DNA of 64,000 nt from Paracoccus yeei ATCC BAA-599 (GTDB lineage Bacteria; Pseudomonadota; Alphaproteobacteria; Rhodobacterales; Rhodobacteraceae), in contig NZ_JHWH01000022.1 of assembly GCF_000622145.1 (NCBI RefSeq), positions 1-64,000 on the forward strand, in the 5' to 3' direction. Positions 36,606 to 58,722 of this stretch are shown here, in pieces; position 1 is the stretch's first letter; each line of letters opens with the position of its first letter. The position numbers and the translations under genes were made by a program. Under the pieces are notes generated by a model. It saw nothing but the letters and a program-made list of their open reading frames with translations. It ran no database searches and was not told the origin of the DNA.

Positions 36606-38564
36606 TCAGGCGGCTGCCTCCTTGGGCGCGACCAGGGCCACGATGTCCATCATGATGCGGTTCAGTTCGAAGTCCTTGGGGGTATAGACGCGGGCCACGC
36701 CCATGGCGCGCAGCCGGGCGGCGTCGTCGTCGGGGATGATGCCGCCGACGACCACCGGCACCTGCGCCAGCCCCGCCGCGCGCATCCGCTCCATCAGGTC
36801 CTCGATCAGCGGCAGGTGGCTGCCCGAGAGGATGGAGAGGCCGACGATATGGGCGTCCTCCTCGGCCGCGCGGGCGACGATCTGCTCGGGCGTCAGGCGG
36901 ATGCCTTCATAGGTGATGTCCATGCCGCAATCGCGGGCGCGGAAGGCGATCTGCTCGGCGCCGTTCGAATGGCCGTCGAGGCCCGGCTTGCCGACCAGGA
37001 ACTTGAGCCGCCGGCCCAGGCGATGGCTGACCGCATCCACCGCCTCGCGGATCGGCTCGAGCCCCTCGGTGCGGTTCGAGGGCGATTGCGACACGCCCGT
37101 GGGCCCGCGGTATTCGCCGTGGACCTCGCGCATGACCTGGGCCCATTCGCCGGTCGTGGCCCCGGCCTTGGCGGCGGCGATGGAAAAGGGCATCACGTTC
37201 TGGCCCCTCTGCGCGGCATCGCGCAGCGCGGCGAGGGCGGCACGGGCGGCCGTCTCGTCGCGGGCTTGCCGCCAGGCCTGCAGCCGGGCGATCTGGTCCT
37301 GTTCCACCGCCGGATCGACGACCATGATGCCGCCGTCGCCCGCGGTCAGCGGCGAGGGCTCGCCCTGCTGCCAGCGGTTGACGCCCACGACCACCGTCTC
37401 GTTCGCCTCGATCCGGTTCAGCCGCGCGGCGTTCGATTCGACCAGCCGCGACTTCATGTATTCGATGGCGGCGATGGCGCCGCCCATCTGGTCCAGCGTC
37501 GCCAGCTCTGACCGCGCACCCTCCTTCAGCTCCTCGACCTTGGCGGCGATGGCCGGATTGCCGTCGAAAAGATCGCCGTATTCCAGCAGGTCGGTCTCAT
37601 AGGCGACGATCTGCTGCATCCGCAGCGACCATTGCTGGTCCCAGGGCCGAGGCAGGCCCAGCGCCTCGTTCCAGGCCGGCAGCTGCACGGCGCGGGCGCG
37701 GGCGTTCTTGGACAGCACCACGGCCAGCATTTCCAAGAGGATGCGATAGACGTTGTTTTCCGGCTGCTGCTCGGTCAGGCCGAGGCTGTTCACCTGCACG
37801 CCGTAGCGGAAGCGGCGGAATTTCTCGTCCTCGATGGCGTAGCGGTCGCGGCAGATCTCGTCCCAGAGTTCGGTAAAGGCGCGCATCTTGCACAGTTCGG
37901 TCACGAAGCGGATGCCGGCGTTCACGAAGAAGCTGATGCGGCCGACCATAGCCGGGAAATCCTGCGCCTCGACCTTGGTTTTCAGATCGTCCAGCACGGC
38001 GATGCCGGTCGCCAGCGCATAGGCCAGTTCCTGTTCGGGCGTCGCGCCGGCTTCCTGCAGGTGATAGGAGCAGACGTTCATCGGGTTCCATTTGGGCAGG
38101 TTCCGTGCCGTATAGGCCGCGACGTCGGTAATCATCTTCAGCGAGGGCTTCGGCGGGCAGATATAGGTGCCGCGCGACAGGTATTCCTTGATGATGTCGT
38201 TCTGCACCGTGCCTTGCAGCTTGGTCACATCGGCGCCCTGCTCTTCGGCCACCGCGATGTAAAGCGACAGGAGCCACGGCGCGGTGGCGTTGATCGTCAT
38301 CGAGGTGTTCATCTGCTCGAGCGGGATCTGGTCGAACAGCGCCCGCATGTCGCCCAGGTGGCAGACCGGCACGCCGACCTTGCCGACCTCGCCCCGCGCC
38401 AGGACGTGGTCGCTGTCATAGCCGGTCTGGGTCGGCAGGTCGAAGGCCACCGACAGGCCCGTCTGCCCCTTGGCCAGGTTGGTGCGGTAGAGCGCGTTCG
38501 ATTTCTCGGCCGTCGAGTGCCCCGCATAGGTGCGGAACAGCCAGGGTTTGTCCTTCTGCGCCAC
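36606..38564 (-). CDS. ecm: Ethylmalonyl-CoA mutase (MeaA type)
   Basis: A 652-residue coenzyme-B12-dependent mutase that converts ethylmalonyl-CoA to methylsuccinyl-CoA in the ethylmalonyl-CoA pathway of acetate assimilation. The N-terminal WLFRTYAGHSTAEKSNALYR is typical of the MeaA/Ecm group rather than methylmalonyl-CoA mutase. The cobalamin-binding motif GLDGHSNGA (D530, H532) begins the C-terminal domain. The GTG at 38564 follows GCGAGG and gives the family length. Its upstream region shares a motif with that of ccr, located 19 kb away and catalysing an earlier step of the same pathway. Confidence 0.93.
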   Translation of the reverse strand: MAQKDKPWLFRTYAGHSTAEKSNALYRTNLAKGQTGLSVAFDLPTQTGYDSDHVLARGEVGKVGVPVCHLGDMRALFDQIPLEQMNTSMTINATAPWLLSLYIAVAEEQGADVTKLQGTVQNDIIKEYLSRGTYICPPKPSLKMITDVAAYTARNLPKWNPMNVCSYHLQEAGATPEQELAYALATGIAVLDDLKTKVEAQDFPAMVGRISFFVNAGIRFVTELCKMRAFTELWDEICRDRYAIEDEKFRRFRYGVQVNSLGLTEQQPENNVYRILLEMLAVVLSKNARARAVQLPAWNEALGLPRPWDQQWSLRMQQIVAYETDLLEYGDLFDGNPAIAAKVEELKEGARSELATLDQMGGAIAAIEYMKSRLVESNAARLNRIEANETVVVGVNRWQQGEPSPLTAGDGGIMVVDPAVEQDQIARLQAWRQARDETAARAALAALRDAAQRGQNVMPFSIAAAKAGATTGEWAQVMREVHGEYRGPTGVSQSPSNRTEGLEPIREAVDAVSHRLGRRLKFLVGKPGLDGHSNGAEQIAFRARDCGMDITYEGIRLTPEQIVARAAEEDAHIVGLSILSGSHLPLIEDLMERMRAAGLAQVPVVVGGIIPDDDAARLRAMGVARVYTPKDFELNRIMMDIVALVAPKEAAA

Positions 38565-38603
38565 GACATTGCCTCGCAACTTTATTACCACAGAGGAATG
38601 GGT

Positions 38604-38616
38604 AGCGTAACATTGC
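38604..38616 (-). promoter_or_regulatory. Motif GCAATGTTACGCT upstream of ecm, shared with ccr
   Basis: The minus-strand sequence GCAATGTTACGCT lies 40 bases before the ecm start and matches GCAATGTTGCGCT before ccr at 12 of 13 positions. TGGTAATAA 22 bases further on could be an extended -10 element, so the motif would sit near -35, a usual place for an activator. It may be a common pathway regulator site. Confidence 0.55.
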
Positions 38617-38743
38617 TGCGGCGTCAATTCGCCGCAACGCAGAAAATGGGCGGCGACCTCGGCTCCTGCAGGACGCGCTGTTCATGCGGCGGAGGCGAAA
38701 GGGCGCCCTGGCTGTCGGCGCCGCTCTCCCTCCGGGGCCCGCG

Positions 38744-40159
38744 TCATCCGTGGGGAATGACCTTGCCCGGGTTCATCAGGTCCTTGGGGTCCAGGGCCTG
38801 CTTCAGCGCGCGCATCAGGGCGAGCTTGCCGGCGGGGGCATGGCGGGCCAGCAGGTCGCGCTTGACCTGGCCGATACCGTATTCGGCGCTGAACGTGCCC
38901 TCCATCAGCGCGGCCAGGTCGTAGATCAGCGGCGAGACGCTTGCCTCGAGGGACCGCTTGAAGCCAGGCTGGTCCGACCCTGCCGGCGCCAGGATGTTGA
39001 AGTGGACATTGCCGTCGCCGACATGGCCATAGACCGAGAGAATCGCGTCCGGTGCCTCGCGCGCGACGATGGCCGAGGCCGCCTGGATGAATTCGGCCAG
39101 GCGCGAGCTTCGCACGGCGACATCGTGCTTGACCGAGCCGCCGTGATGCACCTCGGCCTCGGGGATGCTTTCGCGCAGGGTCCAGAACGCGGCGCGCTGC
39201 TGGCCGCTGGCGGCGATGGCGCCGTCGCTGACCAGCCCCTCCTCGAACAGCTGTTCAAGGAGTGCGCTTGCCGTATCTTCGAGGTTCAGGACCGGAGAGG
39301 CGGTCGCCGCCTCGAGCAGGACGTAATGCGGGCCTGGCGCCGACAGCGGGTGGCGCAGTTCCGGCCGGGCCGAGAGCAGCAGTTGCAGGGATCTGTCCGA
39401 GAGATACTCGAACGAGGTCACCATCTCGCCCGTCTGTTCCTGCGCCATGCCCAGGATGGTCGCCAGGCTGGCGATGTCCTGGATGGCCAGGAAGGCCGTC
39501 ACCGTCTGGCGCGGCTTGCGGGCCAGTTTCAGCGACACCGCGGTGATGATGCCCAGCGTGCCCTCGGCCCCCAGGAACAGCTGCTTCACGTCATAGCCCG
39601 CGTTGTTCTTGCGCAGGGGCGAAAGGTCGCTGAACAGGCTGCCGTCGGGCAGGACCACCTCGAGCCCCAGCACCAGGTCGCGCGCCATGCCGTATCGCAG
39701 CACCGACAGCCCGCCCGCATTGGTCGAGAGATTGCCGCCGATGCGGCAGGATTGCTGCGAGCCGAGCCCCAGCGGCATCAGCAGCCCGGCGTCGTCTGCG
39801 GCGTGCTGGATCTCGGCCAGAATCATGCCGGCCTCGGCGGTCAGCGACAGGTTGCCCGGATCCAGGTCGCGCAGGCGGTTCATCCGCTCGAGGCTGACGA
39901 GCAGGTCCTGGCCGCTGTCCGAGGGGGTGGCCGCCGCGCAATAGCCGGTGTTGCCGCCCTGCGGGACCAGGGCCACGCCCGCAGCCGCGCAGGCGCGGAC
40001 GATGCGCTGGACCTCGGCCGTGTCGCGGGGGCGCAGCAGCGCGGGCGTGCGTCCGGTATGCTGGCGGCGGAAATCGGTGGCATAGCCGGCGATGATGTCG
40101 GGATCGCGGGTGACGATCTCGGCCGGCAGCTGGGCCAGCACCTGTTCAATGGGTTGCAC
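38744..40159 (-). CDS. FAD-linked oxidase (GlcD/D-2-hydroxyglutarate dehydrogenase group)
   Basis: A 471-residue flavoprotein of the vanillyl-alcohol-oxidase fold. The FAD-binding segment VPQGGNTGYCAAATPSDSGQ and SCRIGGNLSTNAGGLSVLRY are typical, and the C-terminal catalytic region contains YGHVGDGNVHFNILAP and EYGIGQVKRD. Such enzymes oxidise D-2-hydroxyacids such as D-lactate, glycolate or D-2-hydroxyglutarate. The Lrp-type gene upstream on the same strand, 81 bases away, may control it. The substrate cannot be fixed from sequence. Confidence 0.92.
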   Translation of the reverse strand: MQPIEQVLAQLPAEIVTRDPDIIAGYATDFRRQHTGRTPALLRPRDTAEVQRIVRACAAAGVALVPQGGNTGYCAAATPSDSGQDLLVSLERMNRLRDLDPGNLSLTAEAGMILAEIQHAADDAGLLMPLGLGSQQSCRIGGNLSTNAGGLSVLRYGMARDLVLGLEVVLPDGSLFSDLSPLRKNNAGYDVKQLFLGAEGTLGIITAVSLKLARKPRQTVTAFLAIQDIASLATILGMAQEQTGEMVTSFEYLSDRSLQLLLSARPELRHPLSAPGPHYVLLEAATASPVLNLEDTASALLEQLFEEGLVSDGAIAASGQQRAAFWTLRESIPEAEVHHGGSVKHDVAVRSSRLAEFIQAASAIVAREAPDAILSVYGHVGDGNVHFNILAPAGSDQPGFKRSLEASVSPLIYDLAALMEGTFSAEYGIGQVKRDLLARHAPAGKLALMRALKQALDPKDLMNPGKVIPHG

Positions 40160-40240: not shown

Positions 40241-40732
40241 TCAGGCGTCCTCGATCAGCGATGCGAGCGGCACCGATTCCAGGTCGATCACCGTTTTCAG
40301 GACCACATAGCTGAAGTATTTCTCGATGCCGATATCGCTCTCGAGCATGGCCTCCATCGTCGCCTGATAGCGGTCGATATTGCGCACCACGAATTTCAGA
40401 AGGTAATCATAGCCGCCGCTGACCAGGTGACATTCCTTCAGCGCGCTGCATCGGCGGATGCTGGATTCGAATTTCAGGAAATCCTCGCGCCGATGGTCGA
40501 GCAGGGTGACTTCGGTAAAGACGGTGATGTGTTCGACCAGCCTGGAAAGCTGGAGCCGGGCGTTATAGCCGACGATGTAACCCGCCTTTTCCAGCCGCTT
40601 GACGCGGGACAGGCAGGGGCTGGGCGATAGGCCGACCGCCTCCGCAAGGCGAAGGTTCGTCAGCCGGCCATTCCGTTGCAGCTGCGCCAGAATGTTGATG
40701 TCGATCCTGTCGAGTTTCGGCGTCGCGGCCAT
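40241..40732 (-). CDS. Lrp/AsnC family regulator (first copy)
   Basis: A 163-residue leucine-responsive-type regulator: N-terminal winged helix (DRIDINILAQLQRNGRLTNL, then SPSPCLSRVKRLEKAGYI) and a C-terminal RAM domain (KECHLVSGGYDYLLKFVVRN). The start at 40732 is the ATG before AATPKLDRID. Its upstream gap holds two palindromic elements that also occur before the LysR gene at 49164. It closely resembles the second Lrp gene at 41301-41795. Its target is probably the adjacent oxidase gene or the catabolic block. Confidence 0.93.
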   Translation of the reverse strand: MAATPKLDRIDINILAQLQRNGRLTNLRLAEAVGLSPSPCLSRVKRLEKAGYIVGYNARLQLSRLVEHITVFTEVTLLDHRREDFLKFESSIRRCSALKECHLVSGGYDYLLKFVVRNIDRYQATMEAMLESDIGIEKYFSYVVLKTVIDLESVPLASLIEDA

Positions 40733-40834
40733 GCGTGCGGGTTTTCCAATGCTTGAACCTGTCCCCGCGGCTGGTCGCCCGGGGACCCGGCAAGGGTCGG
40801 AGAAAACATAGCCCTGTTTCGGAGCGATCAAACC

Positions 40835-57245: not shown

Positions 57246-57355
57246 GGCGCCGGACGGCGGCCGCGCCTGCCCGCGCCGCCTCTCGACGTTTCTGCGCCGC
57301 GGCTACAAAAGCACCGATGGGTCATATTATTGCGCACAACCGTCGCCAAACTGTT

Positions 57356-57368
57356 GCAATGTTGCGCT
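57356..57368 (+). promoter_or_regulatory. Motif GCAATGTTGCGCT upstream of ccr, shared with ecm
   Basis: It lies 65 bases before the ccr start. The local sequence repeats TGTTGC (57353-57358 and 57360-57365) and includes TTGCAA. The gene-distant ecm has the same motif at 38604-38616. It is a candidate site for a common activator of the ethylmalonyl-CoA pathway. Confidence 0.55.
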
Positions 57369-57432
57369 GCACCAGCTAACCATACTCTCATCGCAAGCCC
57401 GATTCTGCATCGCGGCAAGACAGGAGAAGCGG

Positions 57433-58722
57433 ATGGCCCTCGACGCACCGACCAGCATTGCACCCTACGATGCGCCGCAAAAGGATCTCTACGAGATCGG
57501 CGAGATGCCCCCCCTGGGCTACGTCCCCAAGCAGATGTACGCTTGGGCGATCCGGCGCGAACGCCATGGCGAACCCGACAAGGCCATGCAGATCGAAGTG
57601 GTGGAAACGCCCTCGATCGACAGCAACGAGGTGCTGGTCCTGGTGATGGCGGCGGGCGTCAACTACAACGGCATCTGGGCCGGGCTCGGCGTGCCGATCA
57701 GCCCCTTCGACGGCCATGGCGCGCCCTATCACATCGCGGGCTCGGACGCCTCGGGGATCGTCTGGGCGGTGGGCGACAAGGTCAAGAACTGGAAGGTCGG
57801 CGACGAGGTCGTCGTCCATTGCAACCAGGACGACGGAAACGACGAGGAATGCAACGGCGGCGACCCGATGTATTCGCCCAGCCAGCGCATCTGGGGCTAT
57901 GAGACGCCGGACGGCAGCTTCGCCCAGTTCACCCGCGTCCAGGCCCAGCAGCTGATGCGCCGTCCCCGCCACCTGACCTGGGAGGAATCGGCCTGCTATA
58001 CGCTGACGCTGGCCACCGCCTACCGGATGCTCTTCGGGCACGAGCCGCACGAACTGAAACCGGGCATGAACGTGCTGGTCTGGGGCGCCTCGGGGGGCCT
58101 CGGGTCCTATGCGATCCAGTTGGTGAACGCCGCCGGCGGCAATGCCATCGGCGTCATCAGCGAAGAGGACAAGCGCGACTTCGTCATGGGCCTGGGCGCG
58201 AAAGGCGTCATCAACCGCAAGGAGTTCAACTGCTGGGGCCAGCTGCCCAAGGTGAACACGCCCGAATACAAGGACTGGTTCAACGAGGTGCGCCGTTTCG
58301 GCAAGGCGATCTGGGACATCACCGGCAAGGGCAACAACGTCGACATCGTCTTTGAACATCCGGGCGAGGCGACCTTCCCGGTTTCGACCTTCGTCTGCAA
58401 GAAGGGCGGCATGGTGGTGATCTGCGCCGGCACCACCGGGTTCAACTGCACCTTCGACGTGCGCTACATGTGGATGCACCAGAAGCGCCTGCAAGGCAGC
58501 CACTTCGCCCACCTGAAGCAGGCCAGCGCCGCGAACAAGCTGATGCTGGAACGCCGGCTCGATCCCTGCATGTCCGAGGTGTTCCCCTGGGCCGAAATTC
58601 CCGCCGCGCACATGAAGATGTACAAGAACCAGCACAAGCCCGGCAACATGGCGGTGCTGGTCCAGTCCCCGGTGACGGGCCTGCGCACCTTCGAGGACGC
58701 GCTGGAGGCGGGACGGCGCTAA
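57433..58722 (+). CDS. ccr: Crotonyl-CoA carboxylase/reductase
   Basis: A 429-residue medium-chain dehydrogenase/reductase that reductively carboxylates crotonyl-CoA to ethylmalonyl-CoA with NADPH and CO2, the key step of the ethylmalonyl-CoA pathway. Family text is clear: ETPSIDSNEVLVLVMAAGVN, YNGIWAGLGVPISPFDGHG, the NADPH motif VLVWGASGGLGSYAIQLVNA and FEHPGEATFPVSTFVCKKGG, then GTTGFNCTFDVRYMWMHQKR. Length is typical. It is a single gene. The partner mutase ecm lies at 36606-38564; the epimerase and later enzymes are not in the window. Confidence 0.97.
   Translation: MALDAPTSIAPYDAPQKDLYEIGEMPPLGYVPKQMYAWAIRRERHGEPDKAMQIEVVETPSIDSNEVLVLVMAAGVNYNGIWAGLGVPISPFDGHGAPYHIAGSDASGIVWAVGDKVKNWKVGDEVVVHCNQDDGNDEECNGGDPMYSPSQRIWGYETPDGSFAQFTRVQAQQLMRRPRHLTWEESACYTLTLATAYRMLFGHEPHELKPGMNVLVWGASGGLGSYAIQLVNAAGGNAIGVISEEDKRDFVMGLGAKGVINRKEFNCWGQLPKVNTPEYKDWFNEVRRFGKAIWDITGKGNNVDIVFEHPGEATFPVSTFVCKKGGMVVICAGTTGFNCTFDVRYMWMHQKRLQGSHFAHLKQASAANKLMLERRLDPCMSEVFPWAEIPAAHMKMYKNQHKPGNMAVLVQSPVTGLRTFEDALEAGRR

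Follow-up and report, generated by a model that had tools for sequence, protein, structure and literature searches.

The DNA analysed here is a single stretch of 64 kb from a Paracoccus yeei genome (the window), which carries two genes of the ethylmalonyl-CoA pathway, a main acetate-assimilation route in many alphaproteobacteria. As the original prediction had it and as the translations bear out, ecm and ccr lie on opposite strands with 19 kb between them, and each is preceded by a short motif, GCAATGTTACGCT (38604-38616, minus strand) before ecm and GCAATGTTGCGCT (57356-57368, plus strand) before ccr, the two being identical at 12 of 13 bases. The gap from motif to start codon is 39 bases at ecm (GTG, 38564) and 64 bases at ccr (ATG, 57433). 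The hexamer TTGCAA, said to be contained in the ccr copy, stands at 57354-57359, where it overlaps the motif but is not wholly inside it. The features of the two promoters are given below, R2 being a sequence model of a pair of boxes that was built from ccr, ecm, mcd and mcl1 sites, including those of the same genome.

36606..38564, minus strand: ecm, ethylmalonyl-CoA mutase, with a GTG start (from its translation; at E<=1e-200, 47 of the 61 genus genomes have a match).
38576..38588, minus strand: downstream box of the ecm operator (GTAATAAAGTTGC), near the start codon (found by the motif sampler, R2 and other-genus matrices).
38599..38604, minus strand: presumed ecm -10, TACCCA, 17 bp from the -35 (41 of 113 ecm promoters have the strict TTG-N3-N17-TA pattern here).
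38607..38619, minus strand: upstream box of the ecm operator (GCAGCAATGTTAC), between -35 and -10, holding most of the predicted motif at 38604-38616.
38619-38575, minus strand: match of the R2 model at ecm (a site of the R2 training set).
38622..38627, minus strand: presumed ecm -35, TTGACG, within the conserved element GCRGCGAATTGA (motif sampling).
38632..38642, minus strand: PhaR-like palindrome CTGCGTTGCGG, just upstream of the ecm -35 (YYGCN3GCRG pattern).
57321..57333, plus strand: box I, upstream, of the ccr operator (GTCATATTATTGC), conserved in ccr promoters and found by other-genus matrices.
57321-57366, plus strand: match of the R2 model at ccr (a site of the R2 training set).
57353..57365, plus strand: box II, downstream, of the ccr operator (GTTGCAATGTTGC), holding most of the predicted motif at 57356-57368.
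57354..57359, plus strand: presumed ccr -35, TTGCAA, inside box II (a TTG-N3-N17-TA pattern stands at one constant distance from box II in 112 of 119 ccr promoters).
57377..57382, plus strand: presumed ccr -10, TAACCA, 17 bp from the -35 (sequence and TTG-N3-N17-TA pattern).
57405..57415, plus strand: PhaR-like palindrome CTGCATCGCGG in the presumed ccr leader (YYGCN3GCRG pattern).
57433..58722, plus strand: ccr, crotonyl-CoA carboxylase/reductase (from its translation; its matches bear the annotation ccrA).

The motif taken literally does not extend to further pathway genes: throughout the 4.43-Mb genome, exact matches to GCAATGTTRCGCT are confined to the ccr and ecm sites. Six further sites occur at one mismatch, each lying in a stop-free frame of more than 80 codons and probably representing coding sequence, and the reversed pattern, used as a control in the same genome, has 3 sites at one mismatch or fewer. 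Within the 64-kb window, 8 sites with up to two mismatches were counted against 2.67 expected. The literal 13-mer was rejected as a marker of the regulon, being found at ccr and ecm only. The first alignment had paired the downstream box of ccr with the upstream box of ecm, and a second box lies 31-32 bp off in each promoter. The motif belongs to one of the two boxes that make up an operator, and the observation was correct but understated. Among all 31/32-bp pairs of the 64 kb, the two window sites come out on top with either of two matrices from other genera: ecm leads and ccr follows when only 59 ecm promoters supply the matrix, and ccr leads and ecm follows when only 64 ccr promoters do. 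The box-matrix scores of the two window sites are 32.1 (ccr) and 29.6 (ecm).

The operator consists of two AT-centred, roughly palindromic boxes of about 13 bp, placed 31 (sometimes 32) bp apart over the core promoter, and it precedes ccr and ecm in every member of the Rhodobacterales that was sampled; the pair and its spacing, how it is conserved, which genes carry it and how it overlaps presumed core promoters were all established computationally. Motif sampling was applied to 119 ccr and 113 ecm non-redundant upstream regions from Paracoccus and other Rhodobacterales. For ccr, the sampler returned TTGCAATGTTGCGC, with GACATAAAATTACA 32 or 33 bases upstream in 118 of 119 regions; for ecm, it returned the -35 element GCRGCGAATTGA and boxes at offsets 17 (68/113) and 48 (86/113), which are 31 bp apart. 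Compared in the same orientation, the four boxes (I and II of ccr, I and II of ecm) resemble one another with r 0.45-0.80 (column-permutation p 0.007 or less), and in reverse orientation r runs from -0.19 to 0.19; the register of this comparison set ecm box I 31 bp before ecm box II, a distance that the unconstrained sampler also gave. When the spacing was left free between 13 and 60 bp, the best pair stood at 31/32 bp in the ccr promoters of 52/55 Paracoccus and 62/64 other-genus sequences, and in the ecm promoters of 47/54 and 55/59, respectively, these promoters being training data and, as homologues, non-independent samples. The boxes are degenerate, and the spacing is 31 in some promoters and 32 in others.

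The same arrangement was found at pathway genes beyond these two. With a matrix derived from ccr and ecm only and with free spacing, the best pair was exactly 31 bp apart in 24 of 31 mcd and 22 of 30 mcl1 sequences from Paracoccus, an outcome seen in about 2% of base shuffles, which kept base content though not dinucleotides, and in one of 84 control stretches (ScfR and epimerase loci). The check suggested with the original prediction, a search at the other genes of the pathway, succeeded at mcd and mcl1 in terms of the two-box pair, but the epimerase gene (epi) had no R2 match at E<=2 in any of 12 loci. At phaB, a 31-bp pair was best with free spacing in all four genomes where the gene was found, one of them the discovery genome, with scores of 25.2-26.0 beside a maximum of 21.8 for a null of random 280-bp windows; phaA had no pair in 4 genomes. 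One 20-kb stretch beside the genome's own mcd contained no phaB, nor did the corresponding stretch of G012. The operator is less clearly present at croR and mcl2 than at mcd, mcl1 and phaB. Four croR orthologues gave 31/32-bp pair scores of 17.3, 12.5 (own genome), 18.8 and -7.2, so that three of four, one of them from the discovery genome, exceed 9 and the one in G013 does not; with spacing left free, the best pair stood at 31/32 in only one of the four, and a distant MaoC protein (47% identity) had no pair. For mcl2, a score of 11.0 at 31 bp was obtained in G047 and an R2 match of 13.5 bits in G003, and the results were unconvincing in the own genome (best 6.5) and in G013 (-6.1). The assignments of mcd, mcl1, mcl2 and croR are putative and follow from the family to which each protein belongs, its length and its context; a gene list of P. 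denitrificans in PMC10370305 includes the names mcd, mcl1 and mcl2 and not croR.

Genome-wide scans addressed the specificity of the pair. R2 was run at E<=10 against 28 genomes with the pathway and 9 without, and 84 of the 94 matches in these 37 genomes lie upstream of one of the four genes ccr, ecm, mcd and mcl1 at a distance of no more than 200 bp, a figure to be read with the fact that own-genome matches arise by construction and that many of the 28 pathway genomes supplied training sites. By gene, matches were present in 20 (ccr), 19 (ecm), 22 (mcd) and 15 (mcl1) of the 28 pathway genomes. All 28 have at least one match. Of the nine genomes that lack the pathway, eight are free of matches, and a single match at E 1.5 was returned for the other. 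Among the ten outlying matches, three fall in the phaA-phaB intergenic region (G025), at mcl2 (G003) and at a 148-aa MaoC-type hydratase (G054), the last of which we take to be croR; two lie just upstream of Lrp/AsnC genes (G019, G054), and five have no evident link (G048, G056, G060, G053, G033). The two matches at Lrp/AsnC genes (loci L282 and L283) are the two best R2 matches outside pathway genes, and the two genes differ, one standing beside an apparent alanine dehydrogenase and the other near an apparent thioredoxin reductase, as judged by eye. A more restricted model, R1, built from ccr and ecm only, recovered nothing but ccr and ecm in the own genome at E<=10. In 64 loci (676 kb) of other genera, all 46 R2 matches at E<=1 lie no more than 200 bp upstream of ccr or ecm; with default filters at this threshold, R2 reaches 27 of 64 ccr and 16 of 61 ecm promoters there, the remainder scoring below the cut-off. 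In P. denitrificans HAMBI_2443, R2 gave 25.7 bits at ecm, 16.3 at ccr and 18.5 at mcd, the identity of these genes having been confirmed.

The distance between the two genes of the window is unusual for the genus. ccr, ecm, mcd and mcl1 were searched in 61 genus genomes, and ecm and mcd occur in the same 47, mcl1 in 48, one of these (G018) only by virtue of a paralogue of 58% identity. ecm and ccr stand as divergent neighbours within 2.6 kb in 40 of the 47 genomes, and within about 330 bp in 22, while a distance of 19-20 kb separates them in the window genome and in its conspecific. Because the two genes are adjacent and divergent in most genomes with the pathway, the 19-kb gap is most likely derived, each gene having apparently kept its own promoter and operator. 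One genome (G007) has an orphan ccr (C1:652821-654095, 84% identity), with no matches to ecm, mcd or mcl1 at the cut-offs, and in a genome of the same species (G038, locus L234) the mcd match is limited to residues 1-512 and interrupted by two in-frame TGA codons, representing a pseudogene or an assembly error. As regards neighbouring genes, an Lrp/AsnC-family gene lies in the window at 40241-40831 (minus strand), two genes upstream of ecm and behind a GlcD-like FAD oxidase gene (38744-40159). In Ruegeria sp. TM1040 (L295), the gene after ccr is of the LuxR type, and a protein cluster that looks LuxR-like by eye recurs near ccr in 30 of 80 loci. Recurrent neighbours in these 80 ccr/ecm loci, also inspected by eye, included no obvious regulator candidate, and no regulator was recognised by eye in the phaAB neighbourhood among the genes of 3 of five 20-kb stretches.

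With respect to the promoters, the pattern TTG-N3-N17-TA stands at a fixed offset from the downstream box, and this offset differs from gene to gene. The pattern lies inside the box at ccr (112/119), runs over the right end of the box at mcd (29/29), and precedes the box by 40 bases at ecm (41/113, strict pattern) and by 46 bases at mcl1 (24/29), the mcd and mcl1 counts referring to the 29 of 33 sequences each with a pair score above 9. Expressed relative to box II, the -35 lies at 0 for ccr, +8 for mcd, -40 for ecm and -46 for mcl1. What the boxes overlie is thus the -35, the spacer, the -10 or the presumed start of the transcript, and their geometry would be that of repression.

Taken as a whole, the site is a real and conserved operator of the ethylmalonyl-CoA regulon, of which the original finding is one part. 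We consider it likely, with a probability of about 0.8, that each motif is one half of a conserved operator serving a single transcription factor dedicated to this pathway, and the operator probably marks the pathway's master regulator. We infer a common regulator that would act by repression and be released by a metabolite of acetate assimilation, a single mode of action being an assumption here, as the position of the boxes relative to the promoter varies by gene. A multimeric regulator would bind both boxes, which are about three helical turns apart, and cover the promoter; ccr, ecm, mcd and mcl1 would be held low until acetate is used, and phaB would also be controlled in some species, as perhaps would croR and mcl2.

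A second element accompanies the box pair at ccr and ecm. The palindrome YYGCN3GCRG occurs in 118 of 119 ccr, 110 of 113 ecm, 15 of 33 mcd and 4 of 33 mcl1 promoters, and in 8.6% of 3000 random windows; its strict form CTGCN3GCAG occurs in 20 of 119 ccr and 6 of 113 ecm promoters and in 0.6% of random windows. According to PMC12542648, the published PhaR site of R. sphaeroides is CTGCNNNGCAG, and the sites of S. meliloti have the core YGCRNYGCR; the terms ethylmalonyl and crotonyl-CoA are absent from the main text of that paper. The pattern suggests that PhaR may control ccr and ecm.

The family of the regulator can be approached through the form of its sites. Among known families, Lrp/AsnC appears to fit the operator geometry best, an assignment by analogy that we put forward tentatively; the outlying matches at Lrp/AsnC genes (2/10) are suggestive only as a hint of such a regulator. 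TetR- or MarR-type dimers and an atypical ScfR protein are the alternatives to it. In its fullest form, the proposal would be that a single dedicated Lrp/AsnC-like repressor, present throughout the Rhodobacterales that have the pathway, wraps the 31-bp tandem palindromes over the promoters of the pathway, with acetoacetyl-CoA reductase as the first step covered and malyl-CoA lyase as the last, that it responds to a metabolite of the pathway, and that PhaR, the PHB sensor, acts alongside it. We regard this complete scheme as rather doubtful; if it were true, a regulon of scattered genes would change over as one between storing carbon and assimilating acetate.

On another reading, each palindrome would be occupied by one dimer of the TetR or MarR type, possibly a relative of CcrR, with two dimers to a promoter, and a 13-bp inverted repeat suits dimers of these families. 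CcrR is reportedly a TetR-type activator of ccr in Methylobacterium extorquens that binds a palindrome, but it is said to control ccr only, from far upstream. A fixed 31-bp tandem is unusual for independent dimers, and R2 has no match at E 0.5 or better in the ccr loci of three plasmids, two from Methylobacterium and one from Bradyrhizobium. We consider this explanation unlikely.

The original prediction had named RamB as the binder of a shared regulatory site of the pathway, and in a wider form this reading holds that RamB or another ScfR-family regulator binds the boxes and represses the pathway directly. The shared site has stood, in that the pair recurs at mcd and mcl1, but RamB has not, as its published site does not match. 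According to PMC10370305, RamB, a class 2 ScfR protein, activates the glyoxylate-cycle operon of Paracoccus denitrificans, and its site likewise has two boxes (14 bp by oligonucleotide arithmetic) with 18 bp between them, equivalent to 32 bp from start to start. Scored with the box matrix at 31/32 bp, however, that site reaches -2.4 forward and 2.8 in reverse, where the window sites reach 32.1 and 29.6. In addition, PF09856 (ScfR) has no match in G013 (2 contigs, 99% complete) or in G037, two genomes whose ccr boxes score 30.1 and 30.4. At the other promoters of G013, the best pair at ecm is spaced 29 bp, mcd reaches only 6.4, and mcl1 scores 15.6 at 31 bp; in G037, the best ecm pair is at 34 bp, mcd scores 14.0 at 31, and the best mcl1 pair is at 22. 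Deletion of the homologues of PccR and MccR left expression in the reporter strains unchanged, again according to PMC10370305, in which Kremer et al. 2023 call the mechanism that up-regulates the ethylmalonyl-CoA pathway "enigmatic". Because the published site mismatches and the boxes persist in two genomes where no ScfR protein was detected, a RamB or ScfR binder is disfavoured, and we judge it improbable. Finally, that the similarity amounts to shared core-promoter hexamers only is hardly credible. In its favour, the -35 hexamer of ccr falls within box II, and presumed promoter elements share positions with the boxes; against it, the predicted ecm motif lies mostly in the spacer rather than at the -35, genomes without the pathway have almost no R2 matches, and the boxes are not the hexamers because their offsets from these differ between genes.

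A dedicated operator of the pathway, as favoured here, bears on several matters. The pathway genes are scattered, and the operator would explain how their co-regulation can be kept after they have moved apart; it also ties the regulator to genes already seen to rise together. With operator and gene set defined, the regulator becomes findable by a simple DNA pull-down, and strain engineering for C1 and C2 feedstocks is a possible use. Among the literature matches listed, titles and the beginnings of abstracts described no operator or regulator of the whole pathway in Rhodobacterales; a two-site operator is of a known kind, while this regulon and its site were not met among those matches.

Comparison with known systems places the operator among several that it partly resembles. 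The CcrR system shares a palindrome upstream of ccr and the regulation of the ethylmalonyl-CoA pathway, but reportedly concerns an activator of ccr only. The RamB operator, as described in PMC10370305, is alike in having two near-identical boxes about 32 bp apart, in serving acetate metabolism and in belonging to the same genus; it is unlike in its boxes, TGACAAACCTTACA and TGACAATACTGACT (oligo 46), which do not match, and in its genes, which are different. With PhaR/AniA, the PHB-sensing regulator, the likeness lies in the YYGCN3GCRG element at ccr and ecm, which resembles the published PhaR sites in PMC12542648, but this element is separate from the 31-bp box pair. For Lrp/AsnC regulators, PMC2995911 and PMC10201364 describe degenerate semi-palindromes of 13-15 bp with an AT-rich centre, several per target, spaced centre to centre at two or three helical turns. 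The operator described here is likened to them by its site geometry: it too has AT-centred semi-palindromes of 13-15 bp, many of them imperfect, such as GCAATGATATTGC at phaB (by inspection), and its spacing of 31 bp corresponds to a helical-turn alignment.
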